From the NCBI RefSeq assembly GCF_003815675.1, contig NZ_CP033918.1, positions 3,348,001-3,412,000 of the forward strand: a stretch of 64,000 bases of DNA. The letters run 5' to 3'. The notes beneath the pieces are model-generated. The model searched no databases, was not told the DNA's origin, and was given only the letters and a program-made list of their open reading frames with translations. Numbering within the stretch: position 1 is the stretch's first letter; the number at the start of each line of letters is the position of its first letter. This document shows positions 20,026 through 24,670 of this stretch, one piece after another. Source of the stretch: Chryseobacterium sp. G0186 (GTDB lineage Bacteria > Bacteroidota > Bacteroidia > Flavobacteriales > Weeksellaceae). Position numbers and translations under genes: made by a program.

Positions 20026-20036
20026 ATGAACTACGG

Positions 20037-20064
20037 TCCTTGGTGAGATTACCAAGGATTTTTT
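20037..20064 (+). terminator. Intrinsic terminator after the GLPGLI gene
   Basis: An 8-bp perfect stem (TCCTTGGT, 20037-20044; ACCAAGGA, 20051-20058) with a 6-base loop is followed by TTTTTT. Confidence 0.85.
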
Positions 20065-20079
20065 AGTAAAAGCAACCTT

Positions 20080-22188
20080 TTAATGGAAATTAAATTCAGA
20101 TACCTTAGTGTTGCTAATAATTAAGATATCGTCTGAGATCTCTTTTAAATCTTCCAAGTAATGGCTGATGATAAGAATAGTTTTTTCGGATTTTAATTTT
20201 TTTATTAACGCGAAAATGAATATTCGGTTTTCTTTATCTAAAGAAGAAGTAGGTTCATCTAAAATTAAGAACTGGGGTTCATGGTATAAAGCCCGCATCC
20301 ATCCCAGTAGTTGTTTTTGTCCTCCCGATAAATTAATTCCTTCTTCCCCCACCAGCGTTAAAAAGCCTTGAGGTAAAGAATCTATAAACTGATCAAATCC
20401 CAGTGATAATATATTTTGTAATTGATGTTCATTCACTTTGTCGGAGAGTATGATATTATCCAATACATTTCCACTAAATAACTGGATGCTTTGTGGAACC
20501 ACACTCACAAAATTCCGCCAATTATCAATTGCAATATTATTTAAATTGATTTCCTTATTGATTACTATTTCTCCATTTTCAGCGAGAAAGTTTTTTTGTA
20601 ATATTTCGGTTAATGTTGTTTTTCCGGAACCGCTTTTTCCTAGTAGACAAGTTATATTTCCTTTTTGAAGACTAAAAGAGACTTGATTCAAAAGTCTGCT
20701 TCTCCCTTTGAATCTGAAATCAATATTGCAAAGCTCAATACATGAAATTTCTTTAATTTCTTGTCCCTCTGTTTTTTCTTTCTCCAACGAGGAATATTCA
20801 AACATTCTGTCAAAAGCTACCTTTGCTTCCTGTATCGGAATAGTGACTATAGCTAAATTTGTAATAGAAGTAAGCAATGAACTGGAAATTCCGATGATGG
20901 CCATTAGCTCACCAATTTTAATGTGATTGCTTAAAACACTGTAAGATGAAAATCCTAAAATAATAATAAGAAAAATAACCAAAACTATACCTGAGTATAA
21001 AGATATTCTCAGATTGAGTTTTCCAAGCTCAAAGATTTTGGTCTGAAAGAATCCAAAGATAGAATCATTTTTCTTTCCGAATAACTTTTGTTTTGAAAAT
21101 CCTTTAATGACCTCAATTCCCTTTATACTGTCAATATAATTAGATTCGTTGATGCTGTAGGCCTGCATCACATTTCTTTGGGCTTCAATGATTTTTTTAT
21201 TGAAACGGAAGATAATATAGAAAATTATGGGAGATATGAACAGGCATATTAAAGCAAGTTTCCAGGAATAAAAAAAGAGAAACCCAAGAGAGATCAATAG
21301 TCCTAAAACATCCACAACAGTAGAGGTAATGAGTTGCTTTATAACAGTCTGTATTCTTTGAGTATCATTAAGTCTGGCTGTAAAATCTCCGGTCTTTCGG
21401 CTATCAAAAAATATTCGTGGAAGATGAAGAAGAGCATGATAGAATTTCTTATTAACTCTTTCATTAAATGATTTGCTTTGCTTAATAATATAAAATTCCC
21501 TTAGTGCATTAATTCCTACTCTTGCAAGAAGCAAAAATCCGAGAAAGGCGATATTTAATAATAATAAAGGTGTTTTTTTTCGGGGTAAAATGTCATCTAT
21601 TAGTTTTTGTGAAAAAATAGACATTGACATTCCCAATAAGGTAAAAACAAAACCCAATAAAACGATAATATAAATAGATTCCTGATCGCCCTTAATTAGG
21701 TTTTTGATCCAGATATTTTTCTTTTTCTGCGTTGCTGTTCTTTTCTCGAACTGTTTATTAGGCGCAAGAGTAAGACATGTTTTAGTAATCCAGACTTCTT
21801 CCAAATAATCTTTTGTCCAGTATTCTAACCCTTTTGCTGGGTCTCCAATATAAAACTGATTATTTTCAAGACCATTGTAAGAATAACAAATAACATAGTG
21901 CTCAAATTTTTGATCAATAATAACATGTAAAATTACGGGCTCTCCATGTTGAATAAGTGCATCAATATCAGCCTCACACCCTTCAGCTTCAAACCCAATT
22001 TCCTGGGCACATTGATACAGACCCAATAATGTGGTCCCTGTCTTTCCAGTCCCGCTTTTTTCTCTGAGAGTTTCTAATGAAATGCTTCCTCCGTAGTATT
22101 TAACTAAAGATTGGAGGCATCCTACACCACAATCGGTAAGGTCTTTTTGAAGACAAAAAGTTTTTTGTATGAGCTTATTTTCTTTCAT
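20080..22188 (-). CDS. C39-peptidase ABC exporter for double-glycine peptides
   Basis: 702 residues in the classic three-part order. The N-terminal C39 protease domain (about 1-140) has the oxyanion Gln14, catalytic Cys20 in DCGVGCLQ, His97 in FEHYVIC and Asp116 in IGDP. A six-helix transmembrane domain (about 170-450) follows. The C-terminal ATPase has Walker A GKSGSGKT (517-524), the signature LSGGQKQ (from 620), Walker B FLILDE (640-645) and switch His676. Such exporters cut leader peptides after a Gly-Gly pair and pump the mature peptide out of the cytoplasm. It is the last gene of the peptide operon and overlaps the thioredoxin-like gene by 14 bases. No HlyD-type adaptor gene is nearby, although Gram-negative systems normally need one. 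Confidence 0.93.
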   Translation of the reverse strand: MKENKLIQKTFCLQKDLTDCGVGCLQSLVKYYGGSISLETLREKSGTGKTGTTLLGLYQCAQEIGFEAEGCEADIDALIQHGEPVILHVIIDQKFEHYVICYSYNGLENNQFYIGDPAKGLEYWTKDYLEEVWITKTCLTLAPNKQFEKRTATQKKKNIWIKNLIKGDQESIYIIVLLGFVFTLLGMSMSIFSQKLIDDILPRKKTPLLLLNIAFLGFLLLARVGINALREFYIIKQSKSFNERVNKKFYHALLHLPRIFFDSRKTGDFTARLNDTQRIQTVIKQLITSTVVDVLGLLISLGFLFFYSWKLALICLFISPIIFYIIFRFNKKIIEAQRNVMQAYSINESNYIDSIKGIEVIKGFSKQKLFGKKNDSIFGFFQTKIFELGKLNLRISLYSGIVLVIFLIIILGFSSYSVLSNHIKIGELMAIIGISSSLLTSITNLAIVTIPIQEAKVAFDRMFEYSSLEKEKTEGQEIKEISCIELCNIDFRFKGRSRLLNQVSFSLQKGNITCLLGKSGSGKTTLTEILQKNFLAENGEIVINKEINLNNIAIDNWRNFVSVVPQSIQLFSGNVLDNIILSDKVNEHQLQNILSLGFDQFIDSLPQGFLTLVGEEGINLSGGQKQLLGWMRALYHEPQFLILDEPTSSLDKENRIFIFALIKKLKSEKTILIISHYLEDLKEISDDILIISNTKVSEFNFH

Positions 22189-22705
22189 GCAAAGTGTCTA
22201 ATAGTAATTTTTCCAGTTTTATAGCTCCTGAGTTTCTTTTAATGAGATGATTATTTTGATTATAGACTAAGAAATAAGGTATAGTACTCATTCCCAGTTT
22301 TTGATAAAAAGCAGCTCTTTCATCATGACACCAGTGAATATTACTTCGTTTATCTAAGTTATACTGATGGGCAAATTCTTTTATTTCCCTTATTGGTTCA
22401 CTGGCAACCCAAATCCATTGGATATTTTGATATAGATGATAGGTTTTAGATAGGTCTTCTGCTTCTGCCTGGCAATAATGACAGGAGGGACTAAAATAAA
22501 TGAACACTTTAGTTTGAGTATTAACCAGACTTTGTGAATTAAATAATGTATTATCTATCTTTGTAAGGCTGAAAGTAGGGATGTTTTTTAATGCCTCTGT
22601 CTTTTCTTTCTTTTTTCGGAAGTTGAGTAAAAGTCCTATTATTATACTAATAGATATAACCGGAATAATTACAGCCGCTATTTTTAAGATTGTTCTGTTC
22701 TTCAT
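22175..22705 (-). CDS. Membrane-anchored thioredoxin-like protein of the peptide operon
   Basis: 176 residues from the ATG at 22705. This start is preferred over the one five codons upstream because it falls one base after the preceding gene's stop. One N-terminal membrane helix (about 8-28) is followed by a basic stretch and a TlpA/redoxin-like domain. The redox motif is C75-H-Y-C78 in YFSPSCHYCQAE, and the cis-proline loop is in MSTIPYFLVY. The catalytic domain should face the periplasm, where it could make or break disulfides. Its position between exporter and peptide genes, and the paired cysteines in both peptides, suggest that it acts on the exported peptides; that is inference. Confidence 0.85.
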   Translation of the reverse strand: MKNRTILKIAAVIIPVISISIIIGLLLNFRKKKEKTEALKNIPTFSLTKIDNTLFNSQSLVNTQTKVFIYFSPSCHYCQAEAEDLSKTYHLYQNIQWIWVASEPIREIKEFAHQYNLDKRSNIHWCHDERAAFYQKLGMSTIPYFLVYNQNNHLIKRNSGAIKLEKLLLDTLHERK

Positions 22706-22706
22706 T

Positions 22707-23351
22707 TTAAGACTGCACATTTAATATTAGAAACGAAATAACACTCGTCCAAAAAAGTAAACCTAGACCGTAAGTAAGTGTAGTGAGCACAAAAGATTTT
22801 GGAAATCCAATTTTTTTGTCAGAAAATTCCCAGATTCCCCACGCTAAAATTCCCCAATAAACCAGTTCAAAAAGATTAATTAATTGTAAAGGATAGGCAA
22901 GCCATTTTTCGGTAGAGATATATTCTTTCATATTCAAAAGAGAGATTGGATAATAGGTTTGTAGGGTTTCCATTGTATAGTCGGTTTCAATCCAGTAAAA
23001 ATGAGCAAACTTATATAGCCCAGCGATGATAAAAACAGATTCTGCCACTAGGGAAAGGGTCATAAAGTCTGAAAATTTTATATCCTCTAAACCCGGAAGA
23101 TCCAGTAGTTTGATAAAGTTCAAGCAAAAAGCAACTAAGGTAATTTTGATGCCTATAAAAATAGGGATTGTGACATAGCTTACCCACCACCATTTCTTTT
23201 GGCTTTGCATGTAATTTTGTACCACTTCATTGGGGTAGTCTTTAGCAAGGAAATCTATGATTTTTGAGCTGGTTGTTATATAGGTTTTGTCTAAGTAGGT
23301 AAGTAAAAAATAGCACACAATGATGCCTACGAAAAGTATAAGGTTTTTCAT
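22707..23351 (-). CDS. Polytopic membrane protein of the peptide operon, unknown function
   Basis: 214 residues with about five membrane helices (near 4-20, 56-82, 93-114, 152-176 and 188-211) and a conserved-looking aromatic loop (KKWWWVSYV) before the second helix. I do not recognise the family with confidence; weak Yip1-like organisation is possible. It lies one base upstream of the thioredoxin-like gene. In this position it could be an exporter accessory, an immunity protein or a regulator. No catalytic motif is visible. Confidence 0.75.
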   Translation of the reverse strand: MKNLILFVGIIVCYFLLTYLDKTYITTSSKIIDFLAKDYPNEVVQNYMQSQKKWWWVSYVTIPIFIGIKITLVAFCLNFIKLLDLPGLEDIKFSDFMTLSLVAESVFIIAGLYKFAHFYWIETDYTMETLQTYYPISLLNMKEYISTEKWLAYPLQLINLFELVYWGILAWGIWEFSDKKIGFPKSFVLTTLTYGLGLLFWTSVISFLILNVQS

Positions 23352-23482
23352 AATTTAAGAAATAGGTGAAGAGAAAATGAAAGCTCTACTTATCCTAAGG
23401 GTAAAAAGATAATAATTATTAATATTTGGAATAAGAGACAGGTTCTCCATATTCTGAAAAGGATAAGTGTCATTATTGATAA

Positions 23483-23508
23483 TAAGAGAGGTTGTTACAC
23501 CTCTCTTA
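23483..23508 (-). other. Hairpin between peptide genes and transport genes
   Basis: A perfect 10-bp inverted repeat (TAAGAGAGGT and ACCTCTCTTA) with a 6-base loop lies in the 216-base spacer between the small membrane protein gene and the polytopic gene. On the minus strand it is followed by a mainly A/T stretch (TTATTATC), not a clean T-run. It could be a partial terminator or an RNA-stabilising hairpin that keeps peptide mRNA more abundant than exporter mRNA. Confidence 0.6.
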
Positions 23509-23567
23509 CATAAAACCAATAGTAATAATATATTGTTCCTCTTTTGAAAGAAAATATAATATTTTTC

Positions 23568-23813
23568 TTACATTTTGTAAAGTATAAAGCCTAGGAAAAA
23601 TATTGAAAGACCAAAGGCGAATGAAAATGCAATATCTTTAAAAAAGGTATTTTTACTTATAACAAATGTTAGAAGACATGACATTCCAATAATAAAAAAG
23701 AATGTATAAGCCTTGAAAGATAATGCAGACATATAGTAGGCCATATATAAAACAGGAATATAAAATAGAATAATTAAATTCCTTTTCTCTTTAATTTTTA
23801 TTGAAACTGCCAT
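23568..23813 (-). CDS. Small three-helix membrane protein, candidate immunity protein
   Basis: 81 residues from the ATG at 23813 (MAVSIKIKEKRN). The earlier ATG in this frame would overlap the peptide gene and adds nothing recognisable. After a basic start there are three hydrophobic segments (about 13-31, 36-52 and 60-79). Small, basic, multi-helix membrane proteins next to bacteriocin genes are commonly immunity proteins that protect the producer. This is a positional inference, since no family is recognised. It begins 11 bases after the stop of the second peptide gene. Confidence 0.65.
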   Translation of the reverse strand: MAVSIKIKEKRNLIILFYIPVLYMAYYMSALSFKAYTFFFIIGMSCLLTFVISKNTFFKDIAFSFAFGLSIFFLGFILYKM

Positions 23814-23824
23814 CCTATTATTTT

Positions 23825-23968
23825 TTACCAAGATGCTACCCAGCAAGACCAGGCAAGATTATACCCAATCATTGGATTAATCACCGTTGCAACTATTGCT
23901 CCATTCCAACAATCTTTAGGACTTCCGCCTTTTACGGATTCCATTCTATGATTTTCTAGTTTATTCAT
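23825..23968 (-). CDS. Double-glycine-leader peptide 2 (bacteriocin-like precursor)
   Basis: 47 residues from the ATG at 23968; the frame is open further upstream but that part crosses the preceding peptide gene. The 15-residue leader MNKLENHRMESVKGG ends in Gly-Gly, the cut site of C39 exporters. The predicted core is 32 residues, hydrophobic and Trp-rich, with cysteines at core positions 5 and 27. It contains a short NGAIVATVINPMIG helix-like stretch. It lies 11 bases after peptide 1. Activity as a bacteriocin, a signal or another secreted peptide cannot be told from sequence. Confidence 0.85.
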   Translation of the reverse strand: MNKLENHRMESVKGGSPKDCWNGAIVATVINPMIGYNLAWSCWVASW

Positions 23969-23979
23969 AATAAAAAGGA

Positions 23980-24141
23980 TTACATAGCATAAAGATAACA
24001 ACCAAGTGCCCAAACTGAAGCTCCAACAGCAATTGCAGGAATAAAAGCACCAACTCCTCCAGCAATAATAGCTGTTATATTACACTGGTGAACACTTCCA
24101 CCTTGCAAATCTTCCATTTGCGAAACATTTAATTTTTTCAT
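23980..24141 (-). CDS. Double-glycine-leader peptide 1 (bacteriocin-like precursor)
   Basis: 53 residues from the ATG at 24141, chosen because it begins a typical leader: MKKLNVSQMEDLQGG, with the L/M-x-x-L pattern and terminal Gly-Gly of class II bacteriocin precursors. The predicted core has 38 residues. It is strongly hydrophobic, with GG-x-G-A-F and V-G-A-S helix-packing motifs resembling two-peptide (class IIb) bacteriocins, and cysteines at core positions 5 and 33. It is the first gene of the operon that ends with the C39 exporter. With peptide 2 it may form a two-component toxin; this is inference. Confidence 0.87.
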   Translation of the reverse strand: MKKLNVSQMEDLQGGSVHQCNITAIIAGGVGAFIPAIAVGASVWALGCYLYAM

Positions 24142-24621
24142 TTTTGATTTTTTTTGAATTTTAATAATTTTTTTTTGTCTTATAACTCTGACATAGAGTT
24201 TACCCATTTCTTGATCATATATTGTGCACTTATAATCTCCAAAGGGTGATTTGTTTTCAATATTGAATGTTTAAAATTAACAATAAATAGGATTAAATTT
24301 CGTTTTCAATATGCGATATTGTTGTATTTTTATCGTGCAATATTGTATTTTTTTAAGAATATTGATTGTGGTAGTTTTGTTGGAAATGAGATAATTCGTA
24401 AAAAAATAATTTGAGTTTATAGGTTCTCAAAAAATAAGTAAATGAAAAGCTTAGAAATATAGTAGTGTTTTCTATTGTACAAATATATTTTATCTTGCAA
24501 ATAGACTGTTTAGGAGAGTTTGTAATAATTAAAAATTGGTATTTAGTGCTTTATGAAATTGAAAATAATCTTTATCCGCTAAGAGATTGAATACATCCAA
24601 AGATGAACGAAACTAAATAAA
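24142..24621. promoter_or_regulatory. 480-base A/T-rich control region upstream of the peptide operon
   Basis: No gene is seen. Three related palindromes stand out: TCAATATTGA (24257-24266), CAATATgcgATATTG (24307-24321) and CAATATTG (24338-24345), with a further half copy at 24358-24367. They are spaced by roughly 20-50 bases, as operator sites for a dimeric regulator might be. A minus-strand TATATTTG (24487-24480) fits the -7 promoter box but lacks a TTG at the normal distance. The leader from there to the first ATG would be about 330 bases. Confidence 0.5.
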
Positions 24622-24651
24622 AACCCCCTGAAGATTATTCTTCAGGGGGTT
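24622..24651. terminator. Terminator of the zinc metallopeptidase gene
   Basis: A 12-bp perfect stem (AACCCCCTGAAG and CTTCAGGGGGTT) with a 6-base loop has T-rich flanks on both strands and lies 20 bases beyond the stop of the minus-strand gene. Confidence 0.9.
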
Positions 24652-24670
24652 GTATTTTTTAAGATAAAAT

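Follow-up and report, generated by a model that had tools for sequence, protein, structure and literature searches.

What is made from two small, adjacent peptide precursors that share a strand with their own exporter is the question raised by positions 24141-20080 (minus strand) of the window analysed here, a stretch of 64,000 nucleotides of the Chryseobacterium sp. G0186 chromosome (NZ_CP033918.1, positions 3,348,001 to 3,412,000). We consider it likely that this operon encodes a bacteriocin of two disulfide-bonded peptides, along with an immunity protein of its own, and is built on the type of machinery that produces the bacteroidetocins. Its six co-directional genes are, in order, pepA (23980..24141), a 53-amino acid precursor with leader MKKLNVSQMEDLQGG and a 38-residue core; pepB (23825..23968), a 47-amino acid precursor with leader MNKLENHRMESVKGG and a 32-residue core; TM81 (23568..23813), an 81-amino acid membrane protein with three helices and our candidate for the immunity protein of both peptides; TM214 (22707..23351), a 214-amino acid membrane protein with five long predicted helices; a membrane-anchored redoxin with a CHYC motif (22175..22705); and a 702-amino acid peptidase-containing ATP-binding cassette transporter (PCAT) with a C39 peptidase (20080..22188). 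The initial annotation, made from the letters alone, had described the two precursors with their 15-residue Gly-Gly leaders, followed by a three-helix protein, a five-helix protein, an anchored CxxC protein and a C39/ATPase exporter, and all six genes were indeed found where it had put them, with the exporter motifs intact. Pfam searches recognized the C39 peptidase (1.8e-27), ABC_membrane and ABC_tran domains in the exporter and Redoxin and AhpC-TSA domains in the CHYC protein, and no domain in pepA, pepB, TM81 or TM214. The exporter retains D19-C20-G21, H97, D116, GKSGSGK (517), LSGGQ (620) and LILDEP (641), which presumably have their customary roles. The redoxin open reading frame (ORF) could be extended to 22720; its start, however, is probably at 22705 (176 amino acids), as in its relatives.

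The initial annotation did not recognize this gene set as a described system, and for the core of the operon this judgement was wrong. According to the accessible part of Coyne et al. (2019, PMC6671954), a bacteroidetocin operon comprises a protein with five transmembrane (TM) segments, a Gly-Gly peptide, a thiol oxidoreductase and a C39 exporter, and our comparisons confirmed that TM214, the redoxin and the exporter are homologous to the machinery of such an operon whose product is a proven toxin. A profile of 24 aligned TM214 relatives (A2), none of them picked from a known bacteroidetocin operon, was searched against 393 genomes of the order to which a Bacteroidales locus belongs, and matched 17 of them at an expectation value (E) <=1e-4. 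Among these was genome G549, where the matching TM protein is XylorDRAFT_0089 of Xylanibacter oryzae DSM 17970 (E 2.3e-16 at the level of the genome and 8.1e-19 at the level of the locus, with an hhalign probability of 97.4%). Directly behind it lie a four-Cys Gly-Gly peptide, a redoxin-like protein and a C39 exporter; the window redoxin matches its homolog in that operon with an E of 6e-8 (in a single comparison) and the two exporters are 31% identical over 709 columns. The four-Cys peptide bears no printed label, and we identify it as XylorDRAFT_0090 because it adjoins XylorDRAFT_0089; XylorDRAFT_0090 is bacteroidetocin D, a tested toxin in the accessible part of PMC6671954. The same portion of that source reports that in the bacteroidetocin B producer activity was attenuated by deleting the peptide, TM or oxidoreductase gene, and that neither the TM nor the oxidoreductase gene conferred immunity when expressed elsewhere. 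TM214 itself has its best named relatives in C. jejuense, C. oncorhynchi and C. lathyri; no conserved Cys was seen in the alignment of its relatives, and no clear fold relative was found.

The TM214 gene was found in 15 of 173 Chryseobacterium genomes, and the trio that also characterizes bacteroidetocin operons, a TM protein, a thiol oxidoreductase and a C39 exporter near a peptide gene, is kept in the order TM214-redoxin-exporter in all 15 operons (14 fetched loci and the window), which argues that the gene set is held together beyond chance. In a broader scan with one genome per species, 36 loci had TM214 relatives, and in 22 of them, some truncated by contig ends, a redoxin and an exporter lay within 7 kb; Gly-Gly precursors were detected by pattern in 19 of these 22 loci, and not in L015, L017 and L025 (L and G numbers designate our loci and genomes). 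The other 14 comprise one locus with the redoxin only (L033), one with weak matches only (L026), one with neither gene (L019), and 11, mostly of Cytophagales, likewise with neither within 7 kb (L029, L032, L034-L036, L038-L042 and L044). In nine of these last 11, some at contig ends, a membrane protein of ~990 amino acids lies near the TM214 relative, its N-terminus resembling what we take to be a DUF2723 protein, and a second role of the TM214 family, in housekeeping, is possible.

Upstream of TM214 the genes vary among the 15 operons while the machinery is constant. A search with the leader pattern yielded 29 peptides, falling into 12 families by core, and placed five members in each of the pepA and pepB families, all from one set of five operons (the pattern overlooked two further peptides in L104). 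Across the genus pepB was found in 5 of 173 genomes. At E<=0.01, matches to pepA were obtained in 16 genomes (5 strong at E<1e-25 and 11 weak at E 1e-6 to 4e-3) and matches to TM81 in 10 (5 strong at E<1e-24, 5 weak and partial). The strong matches to all three genes fall in the identical five genomes (G000, G005, G032, G036 and G197), and no genome among the 173 has strong matches to only one or two of them, bar an orphan second copy of TM81; the 11 genomes with weak pepA matches and the 5 with weak TM81 matches were left out of this count. An adjacent precursor pair inherited together with one candidate immunity gene, as would be sought in a two-peptide system, is therefore seen in 5 of 173 genomes. 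The other operons carry different peptides followed by different small membrane proteins, of either 52-74 or 173-174 amino acids, and four further cassette types (types 2 to 5, counting that of the window as type 1) occur in two operons each, each type keeping its own membrane-protein family. Non-conservation of the small genes next to the exporter had been named at the outset as an observation that would speak against a dedicated peptide system; what we found is that the small genes are swapped between operons, and mostly as matched cassettes.

How close this match is was scored in two ways. By hand, among 17 cassettes, 14 of 15 same-type pairs shared a small-TM family, a score that none of 100,000 shuffles attained; with the four type-1 operons that form a clade in the machinery tree counted once, the figure was 5 of 6 pairs (4/100,000 shuffles as high). 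Before a sixth peptide set was recognized the same count stood at 14/14, or 5/5 with the clade collapsed. This scoring left out an L098 cassette with a 100-amino acid ORF lacking a TM segment, and the small TM genes located between TM214 and the redoxin. By rule, each peptide was assigned the next TM ORF behind it, and families were formed by single linkage of phmmer matches. Of the 19 cassettes scored in this way 17 had a TM gene, and a TM family was shared by 25 of 42 same-peptide-family pairs (2/20,000 shuffles as high), or by 16 of 42 with stricter TM families (0/20,000); with the clade collapsed the values were 13/21 (1/20,000) and 7/21 (0/20,000), respectively. Based on both counts, the link between peptides and small TM protein is real, yet not strict.

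One exchange of such a cassette can be followed at the DNA level. L104 and L105 are 96.6% identical over 2.0 kb, up to a point 30 bases (codon 10) into the first leader, beyond which L104 carries the pepA core, pepB and TM81, and L105 its own two peptides. Identity returns (93.8%) at the small TM gene of L105, whose copy in L104 is interrupted by a stop at codon 9, and the machinery of the two loci is only 78% identical. A cassette was swapped here at the leader codons, leaving behind a decayed TM gene of the replaced type. In a machinery tree of 1097 columns, with tested groups named after the tree had been seen, the approximately unbiased (AU) test rejected a single clade for type 2 (L092 and L098, p 5e-65), type 4 (L102 and L105, p 0.007) and type 5 (L094 and L105, p 4e-4), and the type 3 operons (L100, L101) formed one clade.

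A role of TM81 in immunity is suggested by its co-inheritance with the peptides, by its position, by an orphan copy and by the relic of its counterpart in L104. The gene directly follows the peptides and is itself followed, in 4 of 5 operons, by a stem-loop (23482..23509 on the minus strand in the window; 11 bp, loop of 6) which starts ~59-63 nt past TM81 and whose pairing is retained while its sequence varies. The stem-loop sits in the 216-bp gap between TM81 and TM214, is absent in L104 and was not among the calls of a terminator scan; it is possible that it marks the end of a cassette transcript. In a large protein database four proteins matched TM81, itself included. The orphan second copy, in G036 (L106), stands in 14 kb of fetched sequence with no machinery label and no pattern-detected Gly-Gly precursor, and the only TM214, pepA and pepB matches of that genome are on another contig. 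Extra small TM genes between TM214 and the redoxin were also observed in L092 (9291), L094 (7664), L096 (8585) and L101 (7879; all oriented coordinates), and are like collected orphan immunity genes.

Turning to the peptides themselves, each core has exactly two Cys, invariant across the five orthologs (with one disulfide, the calculated monoisotopic masses of mature pepA and pepB are 3804.92 and 3549.67), and both precursors agree with what defines the bacteroidetocin system at large, namely leaders of 15-16 residues ending in Gly-Gly and at least two Cys in the core. The narrower definition of bacteroidetocins A and B, four Cys and core similarity, does not describe them, as they have two Cys and their cores did not match the one core compared, that of bacteroidetocin D; the discoverers, in the accessible part of PMC6671954, gave the bacteroidetocin-like label also to peptides with weak similarity and two Cys.

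Several observations weigh against a two-peptide toxin with its own immunity gene. In the comparison with bacteroidetocin D, neither core gave a match at E<=10. Class IIb bacteriocins are recognized by a GxxxG motif in both peptides, which was found in neither pepA nor pepB, and the two peptides are near-neutral, unlike textbook members of that class. Four of the five type-1 operons (the window, L093, L095 and L097) group together with support in the tree, and one clade for all five was not rejected (AU p 0.22), so that the co-occurrence described above counts few independent events. The cassette labels used in the hand scoring and in the tree tests were assigned by eye, and in 17 of the 42 pairs obtained by automatic clustering the TM families differ, partly because single linkage merges Gly-rich cores. 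The match is also loosened by the sixth peptide set, shared by L096 and L104, whose cores are alike (E 2e-5 and 8e-12) and whose small TM genes are not detectably so (E 1.9); this set has the order peptide, small TM gene, peptide (L096 7224 and 7597; L104 7655 and 8028, oriented). Finally, according to the accessible part of PMC6671954, the bacteroidetocin producers tested were themselves sensitive to the toxin they make, and an immunity gene was not found, so that precedent does not call for a dedicated one.

The explanation nearest to a two-peptide toxin differs from it in synergy alone, and the confidences expressed here are not mutually exclusive. It holds that pepA and pepB are independent peptides, each toxic by itself, with TM81 providing immunity to one or both, and we regard it as possible, at a tentative level. 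Single-peptide cassettes exist on the same machinery (L094, L099 and L103), and synthetic bacteroidetocins A, C and D were active singly (PMC6671954, accessible part); however, the same pair is found in 5 operons and other pairs recur as well (types 2, 3 and 4), as is expected of two-component toxins. A different role could be envisaged for TM81 and its counterparts, that of substrate-specific helpers of export or folding, for which co-inheritance with the peptides would be equally expected; this we consider unlikely, since the orphan copy in L106, the relic in L104 and the extra TM genes of L092, L094, L096 and L101 suit immunity against neighbours better.

That the peptides are signals rather than toxins appears quite improbable. 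C39 exporters also export pheromones, and the initial annotation had left the choice between a bacteriocin-like and a signalling system; the first half of this proposal is upheld by kinship with the bacteroidetocin machinery, whose relatives produce toxins, whereas for the second we found no positive evidence, as across the 15 operons only peptides, small TM genes and the trio recur, the larger neighbours, which were not domain-annotated, being different. More improbable still is a decayed or silent operon: a degenerate relative does exist in L107 (6132-6994), with a peptide, a 59-amino acid membrane protein and an exporter reduced to its last 90 amino acids, but all six genes of the window are open and the exporter motifs are intact.

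If the locus does produce a two-peptide bacteriocin, its working could be envisioned as follows, by analogy with the families concerned for the first steps. Once the leaders are recognized, the C39 domain of the exporter would cleave the precursors behind Gly-Gly, and the products would be moved to the periplasm, where the anchored CHYC redoxin would make or proofread one disulfide per peptide. TM214 may serve as a partner in export or maturation, because the bacteroidetocin B producer is fully active only with its TM gene. Once mature, the peptides of 38 and 32 residues would act jointly on related Bacteroidota, a synergy suggested by the recurring pairs, while TM81, from the same cassette, would protect the producer from within the inner membrane. 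None of the six genes resembles an outer-membrane partner; for bacteroidetocin Bd-A, the accessible part of PMC8546649 gives BamA as the target and Bacteroidales as the organisms killed. Between operons, the cassette of peptides and TM81 would recombine by using the leader codons and the flanking conserved DNA as homology arms, and TM214, redoxin and exporter would stay behind as a shared platform.

In the window, L093 and L095 the operon lies between the same two flanking genes, presumably a GLPGLI-type gene and a zinc-metallopeptidase gene, and L104 has the same flanks with extra genes in between. The GLPGLI-type gene was matched in 60 of 60 genomes, and in 26 of the 30 loci fetched the metallopeptidase gene adjoins it, at 47-156 bp in 24 and at 304 and 647 bp in two; of the remaining four, one is the window, two carry the operon and one is cut by a contig end. 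Because these genes are adjacent in 26 of 30 loci, the operon is an insertion of ~4.5 kb (interval 20026..24670 in the window) at a site left unoccupied in the other relatives examined. In G005 the site is empty and the operon is on another contig. The G+C content of the operon is 32%, compared to 34-40% in the remaining 2-kb steps of the window. A different peptide system was seen near some operons, in which a Gly-Gly peptide of 51-58 amino acids (KKLSLKK, then GG) lies beside a protein of 573-593 amino acids (L096 4868, L097 4002, L098 2747, L102 3879, L103 3972 and L108 8705); among peptides with pepA/pepB-type leaders, L108 has a lone one.

Ahead of pepA, by ~30 nt, lies a diverged copy (24170..24199, minus strand) of a conserved 5' element, recognized from an alignment and from a genus-wide pattern. 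The element, GCTGATCAGC-AAAA-CCCATGYCAGGGATTRTATGRCAAA, is found ~28-35 nt ahead of start codons (in L168-L197 near base 1500), and the pattern TGYCARGGRTTRTATGRCAAA, with up to one mismatch, occurs in 86 of 173 genomes of the genus versus 1 of 173 for its reversed control. In 30 loci fetched, whose contexts were read by eye, 22 of 31 sites precede a peptide with a Gly-Gly or Gly-Ala leader, 18 of the 22 outside TM214 operons; of the others, five stand before signal-peptide-like proteins, one before an Ala-Gly peptide and three before no clear ORF. A 5-bp stem with one covarying pair is possible, and no Rfam match was obtained at E<=1 for five loci. It has the look of an element that regulates small secreted peptides throughout the genus.

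These operons resemble several known systems in some features and differ from them in others. Class IIb bacteriocins of Gram-positive bacteria share the adjacent pair of Gly-Gly precursors followed by a co-inherited small membrane protein; the window system, however, has no GxxxG, a Cys pair in each peptide, a Gram-negative host, and the bacteroidetocin-type TM protein and redoxin. Class II microcins, likewise of Gram-negative hosts, are similar in having a Gly-Gly leader, export by a C39 transporter and a small membrane protein for immunity, the part proposed here for TM81, but the six genes here include TM214 and a redoxin instead of a membrane-fusion protein. Bacteroidetocins A-D (class IIf; PMC6671954, accessible part) have in common with the window the 15-residue Gly-Gly leader, at least two core Cys and the homologous trio, and differ in having one peptide instead of two, four Cys in A and B against two in each window peptide, no immunity gene in the operons tested where the window adds TM81, no match between the core of D and the window cores, and the order TM-peptide-redoxin-exporter against peptides-TM81-TM-redoxin-exporter. 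The pair from Caulobacter, which we take to be CdzC/CdzD, resembles ours by description in being a two-protein bacteriocin of a Gram-negative organism, made of glycine-zipper proteins, but is surface-associated and contact-dependent (PMC5380434, accessible part), whereas the products of the window would be secreted.

The core machinery, in conclusion, was already known, and what is new are cassettes of two peptides whose candidate immunity genes mostly match them. We lean towards the broader view that in Bacteroidota the bacteroidetocin-type machinery is a platform for interchangeable toxin-immunity cassettes, which often combine a pair of two-Cys peptides with a matching small TM protein and are swapped by recombination within leader codons. 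As far as the papers examined show, dedicated immunity genes and two-peptide members would then be described for the first time among bacteroidetocin-type toxins; a survey of Bacteroidales peptide clusters, in the accessible part of PMC10352776, reports no proteins resembling described immunity proteins. The cassettes point to candidate immunity genes that can be tested and that go with particular peptide sets, at least five of the peptide types being recurrent, and the L104/L105 swap is a natural experiment on how an operon can alter its specificity while keeping its exporter. Both self-protection against the peptide toxins of Bacteroidota and the specificity of these toxins for their targets thereby become directly testable, and the question of the missing immunity is turned into a simple test.

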